Shown here one piece after another: positions 14,386 through 31,387 of a stretch of 58,996 nt of DNA. The number at the start of each line of letters is the position of its first letter. Position 1 is the stretch's first letter. The notes beneath the pieces were generated by a model. It searched no databases. It was given only the letters and a program-made list of their open reading frames with translations, and had not been told where the DNA came from. A program made the translations under genes and the position numbers. The stretch is taken from the NCBI GenBank assembly GCA_039182125.1, contig JBCDCH010000024.1, positions 1 through 58,996 on the forward strand. Reading direction: 5' to 3'. This DNA comes from Planctomycetota bacterium. GTDB lineage: Bacteria > Planctomycetota > Phycisphaerae > Tepidisphaerales > Tepidisphaeraceae.

Positions 14386-15531
14386 ATGAACACATTCGCG
14401 TTGGTCACATTGCTTGTTCTCGCCGGTTGTCAGATGTCTCGTGTCGCGGGAGGCGATGACAGGGCGGGTGTGCCCATCGAGCCGACTCGTGAACCAACCT
14501 TGCCCGAAGCGGCCGAAGGGCGGTTCCTCATCGGCACGGCGATCATGGCACGTGCGTTGGACGATCCCGCCGTCGCCGATCTGATCCGCACGCAGTACAA
14601 CGCGATCACCGCCGAGAACGAGTTGAAACCTAAATCAGTTCAACCCGAGCCCGGCGCTTTCGATTTCACGGCCGGCGACAAGCTCGCCGATTTCGCCGAG
14701 GCCAACGACATCGCGCTTATCGGCCACACGCTGGTCTGGCATCAGCAGGCACCCGCATGGATGTTCGAGGACGAGGCCGGCGAGCCGTTGCCGCGCGACG
14801 AAGCCCTGGAGAATATGCGGGCGCACATCCACACGGTGGTCAAGCATTTCAAGGGCCGCGTGCACGGTTGGGACGTGGTCAACGAAGCGATCTCCGACAA
14901 CGGTCCGTACCTGCGTGACACGCCGGCCCTTCGCGCGATCGGCGACGACTATGTGATCAAGGCGTTCGAGTTCGCCCGCGAAGCCGACCCGGACGTCGAA
15001 CTCTACTACAACGACTTCAATATCGAACTCGACTACAAACGGGACAAGGCCTTGCGCCTGCTCGCCGAACTCGATGCCGCCGGCGTCCGACCGGATCGCG
15101 TCGGCATCCAGGGCCATTGGCTCATCGGCGGTCCCGACATCGAGCAACTCGAGCGCGGCCTCACCGCCTACTTCGACGCCGGATACGACATCGACATCAC
15201 CGAACTCGACATCGACATGCTCCCCCGCGACGCGGCCGGTGCCGATCTGGACATCAGCCCCGGCGCGGTCGGCAACCCGTATGCCGACGGCCTGCCCGAC
15301 GAAAGGCAACAAGCGTTGGCCGACCGCTACCGCGAGATTTTCGAACTGCTCACCAAGTACGACGAACGCATCAGTCGCGTGACGTTCTGGGGGACGCACG
15401 ACGGAGCGACCTGGCTCAACGGCTGGCCGGTCAGGGGCCGCACGAACCACCCATTGCTCTTCGATCGCCAACTCCAGCCCAAGCCCGCATTCGACGCGGT
15501 GATTGAAGTGTTGCAAGCGAAGAAACAATGA
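14386..15531 (+). CDS. GH10 endo-1,4-beta-xylanase lipoprotein
   Basis: The protein has 381 residues. A lipoprotein signal peptide ends in the lipobox LAGC with C15 as the lipidation site, so it is anchored to a membrane. The GH10 TIM barrel follows. Family hallmarks are ITAENELKPKSVQPEPG, GHTLVWHQQAPAW, the acid/base E167 in GWDVVNEAIS, and the nucleophile E273 in DIDITELDIDM. FWGTHDGATWLNGWP completes the site. GH10 enzymes cut xylan backbones. GTGAGGA lies six bases before the ATG. The stop codon overlaps the start of the RTX protein gene (ATGA), so the two are translationally coupled and probably both face the cell surface. Confidence 0.93.
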   Translation: MNTFALVTLLVLAGCQMSRVAGGDDRAGVPIEPTREPTLPEAAEGRFLIGTAIMARALDDPAVADLIRTQYNAITAENELKPKSVQPEPGAFDFTAGDKLADFAEANDIALIGHTLVWHQQAPAWMFEDEAGEPLPRDEALENMRAHIHTVVKHFKGRVHGWDVVNEAISDNGPYLRDTPALRAIGDDYVIKAFEFAREADPDVELYYNDFNIELDYKRDKALRLLAELDAAGVRPDRVGIQGHWLIGGPDIEQLERGLTAYFDAGYDIDITELDIDMLPRDAAGADLDISPGAVGNPYADGLPDERQQALADRYREIFELLTKYDERISRVTFWGTHDGATWLNGWPVRGRTNHPLLFDRQLQPKPAFDAVIEVLQAKKQ

Positions 15532-17462
15532 ACCCGTCGCGGCGTCACTGGGGTATGGACATGGGGTATCGAGTTGAAGTGTTGGAACCTCGCCGTCTCT
15601 TGGCAGCGGGTGTTTCGCTTGTTGATGGCGTGCTGCGTGTAAGCGGAACACCAGCGGACGATCGGATCGAGATTGTGCAGTCGTCACGGCCGCCCGCAGA
15701 CGGGTCTGGCCCCTGGACACTCGGCCTGATTGCGCGGATCACGAACAGTCATGACAACGTGGTTGGTGAGTTCGTGCCGTATGGCATTCTTGAGCGTGTC
15801 GAAGTGGAAGCGGGCGGGGGCGATGATTGGGTCGAGTCCGGGCGCTACCGCGTGCCGATGACATTCATCGGCGGCCGCGGCGACGACGTGCTGATTGGCG
15901 GCGATGGGGCCGACCTGCTCTCGGGCGGACCGGGTGCGGACATCCTCTACGGCTTCCTTGATGCCGACACGCTGCTGGGCAACGACGGTGATGACGAACT
16001 CTGGCCCGGCACCGGTTCCAACATCGTCGGCGGCGGAAGGGGGACGGACCAACTCGTTCGGGATGGCGGCAGCGCACGCGGCCCGGCGTTCGGCGAGGCG
16101 GACCTCTCCGCCGAGCGCGTCACCGATACCGATGGCAACCCGATCAATGGCGACTACACCCCGCGCATCAACCTCCGCAACGCAGTCGGCAACATCTACC
16201 TCGGCAGCGCCAACGGCAACCGCGCCGCACTGGTCAGTTTCTATCTCTCCGACTCCGGCTTCCGGCTCGACTGGGTGGTGCTTCCGAGCTTTGACCGCAC
16301 GTTGCGTATCCGAGTGACACCGACCGACCCGCCGGTCGGAGCTGCACAGGCGTTTACCAACTACAACGGGCGGTTCGACCTCGGCCCGGCTGGCGGCGAG
16401 TCGTTCGACCGCATCGAAGTCATCACCCCCGACGACGGCGTCGTGCTCAGTCGCAACGTCGTTCGCGGCGACGACGACCTGCGCGGTCTGACGGGTGTCG
16501 GGTCCATCGCGATGTTCCCGCCGGTCACTCATGCGGTTCCGCTGGAAGGTCCCGGCCTGCCGGCAGGAAGCGTTTACATCGGCGGAACGGTCTTCGGCGA
16601 CGAGCTGCTTATCACAACAACTGGGTCACAGATCCTCGTAACCGGCCGGTATATCGAGCCCATCGCGATCAACCAGGAGAACGTGATCCGCCTGAGCGTA
16701 GAGGTCGGCGCGGGTAACGACAGCGTCGCGGTATCGGGTGACCTGCCAGTCGTGTTGCGCGGCGGCGACGGCGACGACCTGCTCATCGGTGGTGACGGCG
16801 GGGGGTACCTCGTCGGCGGTGAGGGCGACGACACCCTTGGCGGCGGTGACAGTCGCGACCGCATCGAAGGCAATGCCGGAAACGACCTGCTCTCGGGCGT
16901 GGACGGCGACGACGTGCTCAACGGCGGCGCGGGCGACGATCGGCTCTTCGCCGGTACCGGCATCAACGAACTCATCGGCGGTGATGGTTTCGACTGGTTC
17001 CGCGACGGCGGCGACGACGGCTGGGACCGCACCGTCGGCGTCGAACAACGGCGCAGCTTTCCTGGTGATCGTCGCGAGCCACGCATCGACTGGGTCGACA
17101 CTGGTCTCTTTGAACGTGCCCGCACCGTCTTCGGCGGTCCGGCGTTCGATCTCTTCCGCAACGTCTTCACCAACGACGGCACGGGCTTCCAGGCACAGTT
17201 CTTCCTCAACGTCCCCGACAACTACACCTACGACATCACCTCCCGCCGTGAGGGCGAGGTGCTTTTCATCGACTTGAGCAGGCCGCGGGAGGGGCGGGGC
17301 TTCAACAATACCGCCACCGTCGTCTTTGGCACGGAGAATCCGCCGGCCGAGGTCGTCCTGTTCGACGCGTTTGCCGGCCGCGAGATCGAGCGCCAGACGC
17401 TCGACCCGACCACCGTCCCCGACGAGCCCGGCCCGTTCGGCACTCGCGGATTAATAGGCTAG
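15528..17462 (+). CDS. Secreted LEPR-XLL protein with RTX calcium-binding repeats
   Basis: The protein has 644 residues. The N-terminus contains VEVLEPRRLLAAG, the LEPR-XLL motif of planctomycete extracellular proteins, which replaces a classical signal peptide. Two blocks of hemolysin-type nonapeptides (GGDGxDxL) occur at about residues 115-175 and 405-490; these form calcium-binding parallel beta rolls. The rest is beta-rich with no catalytic site recognised. The start overlaps the xylanase stop by four bases. A xylan- or surface-binding scaffold role is plausible from this coupling, but not shown. A hairpin terminator follows ten bases after the stop. Confidence 0.85.
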   Translation: MNPSRRHWGMDMGYRVEVLEPRRLLAAGVSLVDGVLRVSGTPADDRIEIVQSSRPPADGSGPWTLGLIARITNSHDNVVGEFVPYGILERVEVEAGGGDDWVESGRYRVPMTFIGGRGDDVLIGGDGADLLSGGPGADILYGFLDADTLLGNDGDDELWPGTGSNIVGGGRGTDQLVRDGGSARGPAFGEADLSAERVTDTDGNPINGDYTPRINLRNAVGNIYLGSANGNRAALVSFYLSDSGFRLDWVVLPSFDRTLRIRVTPTDPPVGAAQAFTNYNGRFDLGPAGGESFDRIEVITPDDGVVLSRNVVRGDDDLRGLTGVGSIAMFPPVTHAVPLEGPGLPAGSVYIGGTVFGDELLITTTGSQILVTGRYIEPIAINQENVIRLSVEVGAGNDSVAVSGDLPVVLRGGDGDDLLIGGDGGGYLVGGEGDDTLGGGDSRDRIEGNAGNDLLSGVDGDDVLNGGAGDDRLFAGTGINELIGGDGFDWFRDGGDDGWDRTVGVEQRRSFPGDRREPRIDWVDTGLFERARTVFGGPAFDLFRNVFTNDGTGFQAQFFLNVPDNYTYDITSRREGEVLFIDLSRPREGRGFNNTATVVFGTENPPAEVVLFDAFAGREIERQTLDPTTVPDEPGPFGTRGLIG

Positions 17463-25474: not shown

Positions 25475-27307
25475 TTATCGGCTGTCGGCAATCTGGATTT
25501 GATCGCGAAGCTCGTCGACTTGGTCATCGGAGAGGTCGGCCTTGCCGCGAATCTGTACTCGACCGTCGGTGTGAATGAGCACAGCGACGCGTTCGTTAGT
25601 GGCCGGGTCTTGGCGGACGTCGGCAAGGATCCAGCCGGTGGTGTAGTCGATGTCGTCCTTCATGCCGCCGATGGGATCCCCCGGGCTTGCAGTGAAACTC
25701 TCTTCGTTCATGGTTCCGTCTTTCCAACGGAAAACAGTGAACTCGGGCGAGTTGTCGTTGCCGCGGATTTCCTTGGCGAGGAACAGGTAGGTGTCGGGCT
25801 CGACTTCGATCTGTTCGGACCAGCCGGTGGCCAGTTGGTCGCTCTCGATGAACAGCGGGTCAAGCAGGGCGAGCTTGTCCTCGGGGAATTCGTCGCCCGC
25901 GTCGTAGTTCCAGAGCGGGTTCTGCAGGGCGTACATGACCTTGTAGCGGTAGGTCTTGCCCGGCTCGGCGGTGATGTCGTAGAGCCAGCCTCGGACATTG
26001 GCGTCGAGGTCGCTGTCGTCGAGAGGGTTGAAGAACGACCGGGGGGCGTAGCCGATTTCCTGGTCGCCGCGTCGGATGCCGGGCCGGCCACCGCGTGGAT
26101 CACCGAACTCGTCGCCGTAGCCGAAACCGCCGAAGCCGAACTCGCCGCCATAACCTCCGAACTCGCCAAAGTTCTCAAATTCCCTGCCGCTTGGCGGACG
26201 GGACTGGGCGATGGGCAGGAAAGCACCGCTGTCAGGGCCGAACTCACCGCCGTAGCCTTCAAAGCCTCCGAATCCGCCAGGGCCACCGCCACGAGGACGA
26301 TTGCCTTCCCTTTGACGACGCTGGGCTTCCTTCCGGCGGGCGTCGAGAACCGCTTCACGCTGTTCCGGGGTCAGGTCGTCGGGGATGGGACCTTCGAGGA
26401 AGTCCTCGGGGTTGAAGTCATCATCCCGGCCGGCCACGTTGCCCTCATCGCCTTCCTCTTCTTGCACCGGCTCAAACCGTGGGTCGTCGCCTTCCTCGAA
26501 CTGGAAGAACGGTTCCATCACGATGTCGACCTGCTGTTGGGCCATGAAGTTGCGGAACGACTCTTCCTGGCCCTTGTTGCCGACGGCCGGTTCTTCGGGG
26601 ATGAAGACGGTGGGCAGTCGGTCGATCTTGATCGCCGGGCCCCATTCGCCGTTGGGCAGGAGTTCCTCGCGGACGAGATGGGCGTCCAGGAAGACGGTCT
26701 GCTTGGCGACGTTCGGCAGAGCCGCCTGCTGCCAAGACTGACGCAGTTGTGCCAGGGGGATTTCGTAAACGACCTTCACCCAGTTGGTGTCGATCGCGTC
26801 ATCAGGATTGCCTTCGGGCGCGACGTCGTCGATGCCTTCGAGGGCGAAGGGGATGGCCTTGGCCTTGCCGTCGTAGACCAACGCGACCGTGGCCGGGGGA
26901 ATCTTGGGAAGTTCAGCGATGAAGACGCCGCCGCTTTCTTCGGGCATCTCGCCGCCCTCAGGGAGGTCCGGCAGTTCGAAGTCCGCGCCGAGGCTGGGCA
27001 CGGTTTCCCGGGCGATTTGCGGGAACGTGTCGTCTTGCTTGTCGAACTTGGCCGCGATCGCTTCGACGACGTTTTCGACCTCGATGTCGACGGTGCGTGG
27101 ATTGTTGATAGCCGATTGCAGGCGGGTCGCGTTGCCTTCAAGGAGCTTTTCGTCCACCTCGCCCGGTCCGACTTTGTCGCCGGCGAGTTCGGCGGTGGTC
27201 GGGTTGTTCAAGACGTACAGGTACACCATGAACAGAACGAACACGCCCGCCACGGCCAGGACGACCCATTCCAGATACTTCTCGGCAAATGCGGTGAGCT
27301 TTTCCAT
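25475..27307 (-). CDS. Single-pass envelope protein of a pilus-like operon, with Gly/Phe/Glu/Tyr-rich region
   Basis: The protein has 610 residues and no family I recognise. One membrane helix lies at about residues 14-33 with a short cytoplasmic N-terminus, so the rest should be periplasmic. Residues 34-300 form a folded domain with an acidic end; 310-340 is a charged helix; 341-408 is a low-complexity region built from FGGFEGYGGEFG, FENFGEFGGYGGEFG and related units. Residues 430-610 are a strand-rich domain (GWLYDITAEPGKTYRYKVMY and following). GGAG precedes the ATG. It is the last gene of the operon and sits where PilP-type lipoproteins usually are, but no lipobox is present. Confidence 0.75.
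   Translation of the reverse strand: MEKLTAFAEKYLEWVVLAVAGVFVLFMVYLYVLNNPTTAELAGDKVGPGEVDEKLLEGNATRLQSAINNPRTVDIEVENVVEAIAAKFDKQDDTFPQIARETVPSLGADFELPDLPEGGEMPEESGGVFIAELPKIPPATVALVYDGKAKAIPFALEGIDDVAPEGNPDDAIDTNWVKVVYEIPLAQLRQSWQQAALPNVAKQTVFLDAHLVREELLPNGEWGPAIKIDRLPTVFIPEEPAVGNKGQEESFRNFMAQQQVDIVMEPFFQFEEGDDPRFEPVQEEEGDEGNVAGRDDDFNPEDFLEGPIPDDLTPEQREAVLDARRKEAQRRQREGNRPRGGGPGGFGGFEGYGGEFGPDSGAFLPIAQSRPPSGREFENFGEFGGYGGEFGFGGFGYGDEFGDPRGGRPGIRRGDQEIGYAPRSFFNPLDDSDLDANVRGWLYDITAEPGKTYRYKVMYALQNPLWNYDAGDEFPEDKLALLDPLFIESDQLATGWSEQIEVEPDTYLFLAKEIRGNDNSPEFTVFRWKDGTMNEESFTASPGDPIGGMKDDIDYTTGWILADVRQDPATNERVAVLIHTDGRVQIRGKADLSDDQVDELRDQIQIADSR
26084..26287 (-). repeat. Gly/Phe/Glu/Tyr repeat region, third pilus-like gene
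   Basis: This segment encodes residues 341-408 of the 610-residue protein. It contains two copies of a GYGGEFG unit plus FENFGEFGG and FGYGDEFG variants. At DNA level it repeats blocks like CCGAACTC, CCGTAGCC and CCGCC also found in the two upstream genes. Confidence 0.8.
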
Positions 27308-27404
27308 GTGAACTCCGTGTCATGTCCGGCGTCATCGCCGGGTCGAGGTGGGATAATAACAAAACTGGGGTGATAAGCGTGGAAGGTGGCGAGGCGAGAA
27401 CGGG

Positions 27405-28769
27405 TCAGAACCCGCCGAACTCACCGCCGTAGCCCTCGAATCCGCCAAAGTTCGCGCCGCCGGGGAAGCCGAAGTTGCCGCGGTCGGATTCTTCTTCGAC
27501 GTTCATGATCGCCGCCTGAACCGCCTTGGGCACATAGCTGGCGAGCCAGGAGCGGAGCATCAAGGCTTCGCCTTCGACCTCGAGTTCGACGACCGGCGCA
27601 TCGCCGTAGAGGAACGACTGGCTTTTGGCCAACCCGTTGTCGATGACTTCCATGCTCGTGATGTTGAGCACCGACAGCAAGCGGTTGTCGCTGAAGGCAG
27701 CGAGCACCGCCGGTACCTCGGTCGCGTCGACCCGCATACGGACCGTGAAGGGCACGACCTCGTAGAAGGAGTTGCTCTTGCGGCCGGTGAGCGAAACGGT
27801 GTAGTCCGGCTCGATCGTCGCGGCTGGGTCGGCGGGGTAGTCCACGTCGGTCGGCGTGTTGCGTTGGTTGCTGCCACGGCCCGACTCCAGGCCGCCCAGT
27901 GCGTTGGCATCGACCTCCACGCGTAGCAGGTGCTTGACCGGGGCATCAAGGATGTTGGTCGCGTCGGCATTCGCGTCGGCGATCGCACCGGCGATTTCTT
28001 CCTGGGCCCAGAGTGCGACCTGGGCGTAGAAGACGTCGATGTTCGTCGGGGCCGTGTCGGCCGTCATGGACTGCGAAACTTCGAACGCGTCGGGGCTGAC
28101 ATAGAGCTTGGCCGTCTGGGCCTTGCGGGCGACCAATCGGTCGGCGAGCGCTTCGAGTTGTTCGTCGATCTGGGCCATGACCTCGTCCTCGTTGATCGCT
28201 TGGCCGGCCGCGTCGAACTGGATGCGCTGGCGAAGCACGCTCTCGATCCGCTCGGCTTCGCGATCGAGCTCATCGCTGTCGAGCGGGAACGTGCCCTGCA
28301 GTGGGTTGGCCACAAGCGAGCTTTCGGGCGTATCGCCGTTGGCGTTCATCCGACGCTGGTAGGTGCGTTGGAACCCTTGCAGCAGCACGATGCGGTTCGG
28401 CTCGCCGAGTTCGAGGGGGAGTGCGCCGTCGACCAACGGCCGCTTGGCGTTGATCGCGTCGATGAGGCTGATGACCTGATCGGCCGACTGGCTGAAGTTT
28501 TCGACGGCTTCGACGCCGAGGTTGTAGTTGGCCTCGGTCGGGAAGACGGTCAGCTCTTCCGGCTCGTCGCCGTCGATGCTGATGTCAGGCAGCGAGCGCG
28601 ACTTGTTCAGCAGGCTCGACAGGTCCGAGTCGAGATTGGCGCGTGTTTCCACCTCGCCTTGCAGGCTCGCAAGCATGCCGGGCAGCGGATAGAACAGGCC
28701 GGCCACGATCGAGGCGATGGCGATCAGGCCGAACACGATGTACAGGCCGAATTTCTTGATGAAGTCCAT
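27405..28769 (-). CDS. PilO-position inner-membrane protein with C-terminal GFEGYGGEFGGF tail
   Basis: The protein has 454 residues. One membrane helix lies at about residues 9-28 after a short basic N-terminus, as in PilO/GspM proteins. Helical periplasmic sequence follows, then a ferredoxin-like segment (YEVVPFTVRMRVDATEVPAVLAAF, then LLSVLNITSMEVID), like the PilO C-terminal domain. The last 14 residues are FGGFEGYGGEFGGF, almost identical to motifs in the two neighbours. The ATG at 28769 is chosen because AAGGTGG precedes it; an ATG seven codons upstream is weaker. PilO function (inner-membrane pilus platform) is inferred from position and layout. Confidence 0.75.
   Translation of the reverse strand: MDFIKKFGLYIVFGLIAIASIVAGLFYPLPGMLASLQGEVETRANLDSDLSSLLNKSRSLPDISIDGDEPEELTVFPTEANYNLGVEAVENFSQSADQVISLIDAINAKRPLVDGALPLELGEPNRIVLLQGFQRTYQRRMNANGDTPESSLVANPLQGTFPLDSDELDREAERIESVLRQRIQFDAAGQAINEDEVMAQIDEQLEALADRLVARKAQTAKLYVSPDAFEVSQSMTADTAPTNIDVFYAQVALWAQEEIAGAIADANADATNILDAPVKHLLRVEVDANALGGLESGRGSNQRNTPTDVDYPADPAATIEPDYTVSLTGRKSNSFYEVVPFTVRMRVDATEVPAVLAAFSDNRLLSVLNITSMEVIDNGLAKSQSFLYGDAPVVELEVEGEALMLRSWLASYVPKAVQAAIMNVEEESDRGNFGFPGGANFGGFEGYGGEFGGF
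27408..27449 (-). repeat. GFEGYGGEFG motif at the end of the PilO-position protein
   Basis: This segment encodes the last 14 residues (441-454) of the protein and ends at the stop codon. Its sequence closely matches the blocks at 29060-29134 and 26084-26287. Confidence 0.85.
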
Positions 28770-28813
28770 GGGGCCACCTTGTTGGGGCAAAAAGGTCGGT
28801 TAACTGACTCATG

Positions 28814-31045
28814 TTACTGGTTCAATGCGGTGGCGTTGAAGTCGCCGTCGACGGGGTCCTCACCCTCGGGGGCAGCTTCCGGCTCGTACGGCTCGGGATC
28901 GACCATGACCGCGAGGTACACGGTGATTTCCCAGTCGTCGAGCTGTGACTCGCCGGTCAGTCGGTCGAGATAGGCGGCGTTTCCGTCCTCGTCGTCGTAA
29001 AGATTGCCTTGGCGACCAGATCGGTTGCGTTGGTTGTTGCGAGGGCGGAAGTCTCTGGGCGGTCCCCCGAACTCGCCAAAGTTCTCGAAGCCCCCGAACT
29101 CGCCCCCGTAGCCTTCGAACCCGCCAAACCCGCCGCGGTTGCCACGGGTGTTGTTGCGGCGGGTGCCGAGGTCGGCGCCGAGTTGAGTTTCTTCCTGTGT
29201 GGCGGTGTACGCTCGTTCCATGTCGTCGAGACGCTGGTTATTGCGCTTGAACTGGTCGGAATCGGCGACGACGGCTTTGACGACTTTGTAGCGTGCGTTG
29301 GGGTTGTCCGGGTTGGGGCCGATCGCTTCGAGGGCGGGGATGACCTCGCTGGACACGAACACGTCCGCCTGGGCCATCGGTGAGATCAGGTCAAGCTGGA
29401 CGACAAAGCCACGGGCGTCGGCGGGGACTGGGCCTTCGGTGGCCGGTGCTTCCTCGGCGTCTCTGCCACGGCCGAACTGTCGGCCGCGGGTGCGTTCGCC
29501 CAGTGCCGAGCCGGCCGCGGTGACGAAGTCGGTGTCGTTAGCGATGCTCGCCAAATCCGAGACGTACTTGGCTTGGAAACCCTCGATCTGCACGATCGTT
29601 CGCTGGTCGCGGGGGACTTGCTTGACCATGTCGGCATCGCCTTCGGCCAGCCCTCGGGCGACCTCTGGCTGTGGTTGTGGCAACGCGACGAAGGGTGCGG
29701 GATAGAAGTCGGCCCAGAACGTCTGGTACTCGGCGAGGTCGCGGGCGTTGCGGATCTTGACCAGGTTGTCACCGCCGGCATCCTGGACGTTGCTGGCCCA
29801 CTGACTGTCGAGGTTGCGTGCCTTGGAAAGGATCTGGTCCACGTCGCGGCGGTTGTCCTCGGCAACGGGGTTGTTGAACGCCAGTGAGTTCACGCCGAAC
29901 GCCGCCAGCGGCACCATCGCGCCCACGACGAACAGTGCGGCAGCCGCGGCGAACCACTTGGTCTTTCCGGCCCAAAGTTGTTCCTTGCGGATGTGCTCGG
30001 GCAGGAGGTTGGCTTGCACGGACGTTTCTCCCAGCCCTTGCAACGCGAGTCCGTAGGCCGCTCCGAGCGAGAGCAGTTGGTCGGAGTACGCCGAAGCCTT
30101 GGCGCTGTCGCTCGGCGGGTTGGCCAGGAACCGATCGGGCCGATCGACCGGCATCGAGAGGTTCTGCTGGAGGTACTTGGCCAGCATGGGCAGCTTGAAC
30201 CCGCCGCCCATCGGGATCACCTTGCGGATCTTCTTGTCCTTGTGGGTCGAGGTATAGAAGCCCTGCGAACGTTGGATCTCGGAGACGAGCTCGGCGAAGA
30301 TCGGCCGCATGGCCTGGAAGATCTGCCGCGAGTACTTGGAGGATTTGGCTTCACGCTTGAGCTTTTCGGCCTTGGCGAAGTCGACCTTGAACGCCGACTC
30401 GATCGCCTCGGTGAAGCTGTTGCCGCCGATGGGGATATTGCGGGTCCAGATCGTGTGATCGTCGGCGATGATCAGGTCGGTGTTGTCCATCCCCATGTCG
30501 AGGATCATCGCCGCACCCTTGACCAGCCGACCGTCGTGCTGGACGCCGTTGTAGAGGGCCAGCGGGTTGGTCTGGACGAGTTGGACGTTGAGTTCGAGAT
30601 CAGTGAAGTTCGCGACGTGCTGGTTCACCAACTCTTTTCGCATCGCGAAGATGCCGACTTCGAGGTCCGGATCATCGGGTTCCTGGAAGAGCTGGTATGA
30701 CCATTCGACATCGTCGAGCGGGAAGGGGATCTGCTGGATGGCTTCGAAGTTGACAATCTTGTCGACTTCTTTGGCCTCGACGGGCGGGAGCTTGACGAAC
30801 TTGGAGAACGTCTGCCCGCCGGTGACGCCGACGGCGATCGGGAGTTTCTTGGTTTCGTTTTCCTCGACGAACTTGCCCAGCGACTGCTGGATGAGCGTGT
30901 CGCGGTTGTCGCCGGCCTGGGAGAGCGGGGTCTCGTGCTCAACGAAGGCGAAGTCCTCGACTTTCAGCTCGCCGCCTTCGCGGGTGAGCTTGATCGCCTT
31001 GAGGGCGCGGTTGCCGATATCAATGCCCCATGCGGTGGATGCCAT
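28814..31045 (-). CDS. pilM: Fused PilM-PilN-like type IV pilus assembly protein
   Basis: The protein has 743 residues. Residues 1-340 are PilM, an actin-like ATPase fold: GIDIGNRALKAIKL, ILDMGMDNTDLIIAD and VIPMGGGFKLPML are its phosphate and adenosine motifs. ANLLPEHIRKEQ at about 346-356 is the PilN hallmark, followed by one membrane helix (about 364-386). Residues 390-630 are periplasmic and helical; residues 638-662 carry the Gly/Phe/Glu/Tyr motif; a short strand-rich end follows. PilM and PilN are normally separate partners joined through this N-terminal PilN peptide, so a fusion is consistent. GAAAGGGA precedes the ATG at 31045. It is the first gene of the operon. Confidence 0.9.
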   Translation of the reverse strand: MASTAWGIDIGNRALKAIKLTREGGELKVEDFAFVEHETPLSQAGDNRDTLIQQSLGKFVEENETKKLPIAVGVTGGQTFSKFVKLPPVEAKEVDKIVNFEAIQQIPFPLDDVEWSYQLFQEPDDPDLEVGIFAMRKELVNQHVANFTDLELNVQLVQTNPLALYNGVQHDGRLVKGAAMILDMGMDNTDLIIADDHTIWTRNIPIGGNSFTEAIESAFKVDFAKAEKLKREAKSSKYSRQIFQAMRPIFAELVSEIQRSQGFYTSTHKDKKIRKVIPMGGGFKLPMLAKYLQQNLSMPVDRPDRFLANPPSDSAKASAYSDQLLSLGAAYGLALQGLGETSVQANLLPEHIRKEQLWAGKTKWFAAAAALFVVGAMVPLAAFGVNSLAFNNPVAEDNRRDVDQILSKARNLDSQWASNVQDAGGDNLVKIRNARDLAEYQTFWADFYPAPFVALPQPQPEVARGLAEGDADMVKQVPRDQRTIVQIEGFQAKYVSDLASIANDTDFVTAAGSALGERTRGRQFGRGRDAEEAPATEGPVPADARGFVVQLDLISPMAQADVFVSSEVIPALEAIGPNPDNPNARYKVVKAVVADSDQFKRNNQRLDDMERAYTATQEETQLGADLGTRRNNTRGNRGGFGGFEGYGGEFGGFENFGEFGGPPRDFRPRNNQRNRSGRQGNLYDDEDGNAAYLDRLTGESQLDDWEITVYLAVMVDPEPYEPEAAPEGEDPVDGDFNATALNQ
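29060..29134 (-). repeat. Gly/Phe/Glu/Tyr motif in the PilM-PilN fusion
   Basis: This segment encodes residues 638-662 and contains FGGFEGYGGEFGGFENFGEF. It shares its core with both downstream proteins, at both peptide and DNA level. Confidence 0.85.
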
Positions 31046-31387
31046 GGTCAGTCCCTTTCTTCGTGGGCCGATTCTTAACTGGCCGGGTCGGTGTACAGCT
31101 GTTTCACGAACAGTCGGTCGGACGGGTCCGGCCGGTGATGCAATGTGATCGAACACCGCCCTTGGCACAAGTGGGAGCGGGTTTCACATCCGGGTTTTCG
31201 GCACCGCAATCCTCCGATCGCGGCGATACTTCAAGCGGCCACGTCTGGTCGCGGCCGGCGGGGATCGAACCGGACAAGCGTTTCTCGTGTCCGGCTCGGG
31301 GCGACCCGCGACGCCACCTCCTGTAGCTTCGCGCGACGCCCCAGCATAACACATCCTCCACGCGCCACAAGCTTCTACGATGCACGC
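31046..31387. other. 342-base intergenic region with nested hairpins and a tRNA-like fragment
   Basis: This spacer separates the divergent pilM-like and mtaB genes and must hold both promoters. Bases 31248-31312 can fold: GTCGCGG pairs with CCGCGAC outside, and CCGGACA with TGTCCGG inside (7 bases each). On the minus strand the centre contains GGTTCGATCCCCG, which resembles a tRNA T-arm, followed by CGACCA. D-arm and anticodon arms are missing and the spacing is off by one, so it is at best a tRNA remnant or a structured leader. Confidence 0.4.

Follow-up and report, generated by a model that had tools for sequence, protein, structure and literature searches.

The window, a stretch of 58,996 nucleotides from a Planctomycetota bacterium (contig JBCDCH010000024.1), contains three consecutive minus-strand genes, here called MN, O and T, whose products each carry the peptide GFEGYGGEFG once. 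The copies lie at 29093-29122 in MN, 27414-27443 in O and 26237-26266 in T, and a second peptide, FENFGEFGG, is found in MN (29063-29089) and T (26153-26179), all on the minus strand. These coordinates bear out the first-pass annotation, which had reported the former peptide in three adjacent proteins and the latter in two. In its full extent, the house motif of this genome reads GGFGGFEGYGGEFGGFENFGEFGG in MN (aa 679-702; 29063..29134), where it occupies the loop separating the periplasmic domain from the last conserved stretch of the protein, and FGGFEGYGGEFGGF in O, of which it forms the final 14 residues (27408..27449). T carries one copy, GGFGGFEGYGGEFG (aa 344-357; 26237..26278), in its disordered linker (residues 339-416) and a second block, EFENFGEFGGYGGEFGFGGFGYGDEFG (aa 376-402; 26102..26182), in which an additional related run, GYGGEFGFGGFGYGDEFG, reaches 26102. 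The longest identical stretches between the proteins span 14 aa for MN-O, 14 aa for MN-T and 12 aa for O-T, and the copies in the three genes are encoded by differing synonymous codons.

By reading, the neighbors of the trio are a succinate dehydrogenase iron-sulfur gene and an MtaB-like gene, and neither an Amuc_1102-like pilin gene nor a secretin gene lies next to MN, O and T in the window. Elsewhere in the window, an ORF at 15528-17459 (+) bears LEPRRLLA, a start motif known from planctomycete surface proteins, in its N-terminus.

Domain architecture of the MN, O and T proteins

MN (28814..31168, minus strand; ORF of 784 aa) combines a PilM domain, a transmembrane helix (aa 403-431; 29876..29962, from hydropathy) and a periplasmic PilN-like part, the portion beyond the helix occupying the PilN position. 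The PilM domain is recognized above the respective cut-offs by both PF11104 PilM_2 (E=7.3e-39; 134.1 bits versus 27) and TIGR01175 pilM (153.5 bits versus a curated 133). Against the Amuc_1101 family (NF045709, an equivalog) MN scores 214.5 bits (E 3.2e-63) and misses the curated cut-off of 650 bits; on these profile scores it is a distant relative of that family lying outside the equivalog. For both MN and O, translation probably begins downstream of the listed ORF start; the ATGs at 31051 (MASTAWGID...) and 28769, respectively, fit the conserved starts and are favored here.

O (27405..28790, minus strand) was modeled with AF2 from an alignment of 28 sequences (mean pLDDT 76). The model predicts a transmembrane helix, a coiled coil, a ferredoxin-like domain and a disordered C-terminal tail (431-461, pLDDT<50), and among solved structures its fold comes closest to Akkermansia Amuc_1100 (Foldseek 6lad, E=8.5e-5, prob 1.00; VIA Z 12.3 over 176 aligned residues, rmsd 4.7), followed by PilO and the periplasmic domains of GspM/GspL. 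At the sequence level, 3 of the 28 O homologs match Amuc_1100_fam (best E 2e-4), the O of the window not being among them.

T (25475..27307, minus strand) is predicted to be a single-pass protein in which an FnIII-like sandwich (VIA Z 7.4 versus 1cfb) is split by the disordered linker and followed by a possible GspC-HR-like domain. Its AF2 model has a mean pLDDT of 74, with low confidence in the linker (339-416). Residues 506-590 (25538..25792) form a candidate GspC homology-region fold, the type that binds the secretin N0 domain, aligning with 3oss_C at 62/65 residues and rmsd 2.2; the VIA Z of 6.4, below 8, makes this likeness suggestive only. Both domains came from VIA alone, a Foldseek search with the whole T model returning nothing at E<=0.001. 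Searches of the T and O sequences against solved structures gave nothing useful, T showed no sequence match to GspC or PilP, and an NCBIfam scan of T and its homologs found no relevant family. Instead of the PilP lipoprotein anchor, T has an N-terminal hydrophobic helix, and it lacks a lipobox cysteine; it is probably GspC/PilP-like.

Given the PilM domain, the Amuc_1100/PilO fold and the possible GspC region, the trio resembles an inner-membrane platform of the PilMNO/GspCLM kind. The earlier proposal of an undescribed system is accordingly withdrawn in favor of a planctomycete version of this platform, related to Akkermansia Amuc_1099-1101. Such platforms are widespread in Planctomycetota: of 61 genomes searched, namely the window's own and those of relatives, 56 contain an MN homolog, and a sample of 149 Planctomycetota genomes yielded homologs in 115.

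Each of the three proteins has one hydrophobic helix (MN 403-431, O 10-41, T 10-36), and every motif copy lies downstream of it. With the PilM domain cytoplasmic and an N-in orientation, the copies would all face the periplasm, in agreement with the topology predicted in the first-pass annotation. The motifs of O and T, the two proteins that were modeled, fall in the low-confidence parts of their models (431-461 and 339-416), which are presumably disordered.

House motifs in the window's genome and its relatives

A whole-genome search of the 4.13 Mb assembly (E<=10) recovered motif matches only in MN, O and T. A degenerate DNA pattern allowing <=2 mismatches hit four sites, all inside these genes, and its reversed control none. 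These searches rule out a generic or mobile genomic repeat, the possibility raised when the motif was first noticed. When the low-complexity segments were shuffled 60 times with their composition preserved, the real shared order of residues did better than every shuffle, and this held for all three pairs. Separately, a secretin of the same genome (L153:178-2487, contig C10; T2SS-T3SS_pil_N domain) contains LFGFGEFGEDIS, a FENFGEFGG-like sequence that possibly arose by chance.

None of the relatives' operons inspected showed GFEGYGGEFG itself. The corresponding regions there are nevertheless of low complexity and often carry another motif common to the subunits. All three proteins share FGPPGG repeats in loci L092 and L096, FGGPPGG in L039, PGMPG in L113 and L045, and GMGMG in L123. 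In several genomes the match is limited to two of the three subunits: MN and T share GPPGYG in L103 and L133, GMPGMG in L143 and L070, MPGMPG in L040 and L042, and acidic-aromatic stretches in L149, whereas O and T of L066 have the ending DDDYGA in common. GMGMPG is also among the relatives' house motifs. The first-pass annotation had held that absence from close relatives would indicate a local, neutral expansion; the absence was confirmed, but the conclusion drawn from it proved misleading, as the relatives' linkers share motifs of their own in the same subunits and the codons are randomized (see below). Since different motifs are shared by the same subunits, the general phenomenon is the matching and not any particular sequence. 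Outside Phycisphaerae, most operons lack shared motifs, with weak forms in one family (L160-L164). In one such non-Phycisphaerae locus, L184, MN ends in KKKKRRGRRRGRH and O in KKKRRRGRRRR, both strongly basic and a possible house motif.

Whole-genome searches in nine other genomes located the house motif, where found, almost only in the MN-O-T operon, although the pattern used missed the motif of G006. The off-operon exceptions were confined to G062, G064, G041 and a single one-mismatch site in G017. The G041 hit, a GMPG-pattern match, was rejected as a house-motif protein because it is the C-terminal tail of GroEL. In G062, a secreted protein of 560 aa with a duplicated domain (L156:3752-5434, +) carries the house motif GGGFGPPGGFGPPGGFG in its second half; in G064, a membrane-anchored protein of 512 aa outside the operon (L157:2483-4018, -) carries that genome's house motif GMPGMGGMGMPGMDGMGMGM, and its C-terminus looks pseudopilin-like by eye, with no Pfam family above cut-off. 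Both could be recruited partners.

Statistics of matching and the joint replacement of motifs

Subunits from the same genome have more 4-mers in common than partners permuted within family or class, none of 5000 permutations reaching the observed value for any of the three pairs. We also ranked each subunit's own partner by local alignment in 77 full operons, using low-complexity segments only, delimited by a threshold that was a single choice of ours, and leaving near relatives out of the comparison set. The own partner fell in the top 5% for 17/69 MN-T, 12/54 O-T and 8/54 MN-O comparisons (binomial p 4e-8, 1e-5 and 0.005, respectively), p-values that are somewhat too small because the near relatives counted (L092/L096, L040/L042, L103/L133) are not independent. 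Over the union of the three pairs, matching was detectable in 28 of 77 operons, against up to ~10 expected by chance at 5% in three tests, and is therefore common, not universal. Composition shuffles were beaten by 26 of the 69 MN-T pairs.

In the longest peptides shared between genes, 191/467 codons are identical, compared with 179.9 expected from codon usage. Because synonymous codons are randomized between the genes, recent DNA copying fails to explain the sharing, and recent gene conversion or duplication was ruled out. The amino acids have been kept while the DNA has not, so that the peptide match has outlasted synonymous saturation, a pattern that points to selection on the protein. Adjacent units inside arrays are mildly above expectation (143/340 identical codons versus 116), and a few arrays have expanded recently, with adjacent-unit identities of 9/11 in L103 MN, 13/17 in L105 T and 18/28 in L126. 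The last of these is a run of about ten GMMGP units in MN (8.3 identical codons expected), a recent expansion unlike most arrays.

Two comparisons of sister lineages capture the replacement of motifs. L096 and L113 are near sisters in the PilM-domain tree (protein identity 80% for MN, 73% for O and 67% for T); at homologous sites of all three proteins, the former has FGPPGG and the latter PGMPG. Likewise, the GPPGYG of L103/L133 corresponds to acidic D/E/Y/W sequence in L149 in the MN loop, the T linker and the T C-terminal tail. In both comparisons the motif was replaced jointly in all motif-bearing subunits, and no other observation argues as strongly that the subunits are required to match.

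Competing explanations and comparison with known systems

The explanation we propose, at somewhat less than an even chance, is that the matched periplasmic segments make multivalent like-with-like contacts that hold MN, O and T together. The machine would be the planctomycete counterpart of a type IV pilus or type II secretion system, with a platform made of MN (PilM+PilN or GspL-like), O (PilO/GspM/Amuc_1100-like) and T, the probable GspC/PilP-like subunit. Each subunit would expose at least one disordered low-complexity periplasmic segment beside its folded domain, and in many lineages the segments would share one short house motif. In the version found in the window, Gly spacers would alternate with Phe/Tyr/Glu stickers capable of such contacts, helping to join the three subunits and keeping the T arm toward the secretin tethered. 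A change in one subunit would be selected to be copied in the others, and with only matching at stake the motif itself would be free to drift. XpsC, XpsL and XpsM, the C, L and M proteins of a type II secretion system, assemble into a single trimeric complex (PMC11981180), which would bring segments on homologous subunits close together in space. Sharing, near restriction to the operon, excess over the partners of other genomes, randomized codons and coordinated replacement are direct observations; we infer that the segments touch and are selected for doing so. More broadly, and with greater reserve, the subunits of one envelope machine may all need the same low-complexity motif, arbitrary in itself and specific to the lineage, which would be replaced in all of them as a set. 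It would give each lineage a private cohesion code for its platform, possibly recruiting further tagged envelope proteins.

The sharing, the codon data and the concerted switches would also fit if the motif in all three proteins bound a fourth partner, such as the secretin, peptidoglycan, a glycan cargo, or a periplasmic chaperone or modifying enzyme, with the subunits co-varying as they follow it. The rare house-motif proteins elsewhere in the envelope, secreted in L156 and membrane-bound in L157, are explained as well by recruitment to a common partner as by homotypic contact, and the related Akkermansia MUL2 locus has been linked to glycan attachment (PMC13174399). However, the analysis turned up no fourth protein that has a co-varying feature, and the secretins of the window's own genome read without the motif, although a partner need not share it; we regard this account as rather unlikely. 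Somewhat less probable still is a neutral origin, in which slippage and recombination between neighboring genes would have spread a repeat through tolerant disordered loops. The genes are indeed adjacent, repeat number differs between the close relatives L092 and L096, a few arrays (L126, L103 MN, L105 T) expanded recently, and the codon data leave room for each motif to have originated by conversion or copying. Yet unconstrained loops would have lost a match that has outlived synonymous saturation (191/467 versus 180), and homologous positions switch jointly across subunits. A genome-wide compositional habit, by which each genome fills its low-complexity loops with favorite residues and makes the loops of any two proteins alike, accords with the matches that fail against composition-preserving shuffles (e.g., MN-T of L047 and L072), but 26/69 MN-T pairs beat such shuffles and the house motif is almost confined to the MN-O-T operon, making this the least plausible alternative and a very improbable one.

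If the subunits of one machine do turn over a disordered motif in concert, they would offer a natural system for testing sequence matching among low-complexity proteins. The motif exists in many natural variants, and partners are swappable since sister species differ in it. A further interest lies in the poorly understood pilus or uptake machinery of Planctomycetota, related to that of Akkermansia, and in what holds it together in a periplasm of unusual width (PMC5394234). Macromolecule uptake in planctomycetes occurs near pili-like fibers (PMC5394234), and it is a guess on our part that these fibers are connected with the MN/O/T platform.

Among known systems, the Akkermansia MUL2 locus (Amuc_1098-1102) is similar through MN, a match to the Amuc_1101 family, and through O, whose fold is that of Amuc_1100. 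In other planctomycete classes, MN-O-T is followed in many loci by a gene of ~900 aa, the order that 1101-1100-1099-1098 would give; Amuc_1098 we take to be a secretin, and a secretin role for the ~900 aa gene is putative. The MUL2 locus differs in that the window's trio has no adjoining pilin or secretin, MN stays below the Amuc_1101 cut-off and T has no NCBIfam match; in the published text consulted, no motif shared among the Akkermansia proteins is mentioned. The PilM-PilN-PilO-PilP set of type IVa pili is matched in its roles, in a PilM domain above curated cut-offs and in a PilO-like fold (2rjz, Z 6.7). Unlike in that system, PilM and PilN are fused in the window, T is helix-anchored and much larger than the lipoprotein PilP, and MN, O and T all have long disordered segments bearing the shared motif. 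With GspC-GspL-GspM (XpsCLM) of type II secretion, the trio has in common three single-pass subunits, one with a cytoplasmic actin-like domain (GspL-like), a ferredoxin-like domain in O (XcpY, EpsM and PulM folds, Z about 5-6) and a possible GspC HR domain on T, whereas the window's proteins have no Pfam match to GspL, GspM or GspC. Matched motifs between subunits of such platforms were not described in the open-access literature searched. Homotypic low-complexity segments, namely FG-, GYG- and prion-like stickers and spacers, combine glycine and aromatic or charged residues with disorder and repeats, and the window's segments are alike in all these respects. Such segments, however, act within one protein type or broad class, whereas the exact motif of the window is confined to a single operon of a single genome, and motif changes run in concert through the subunits.
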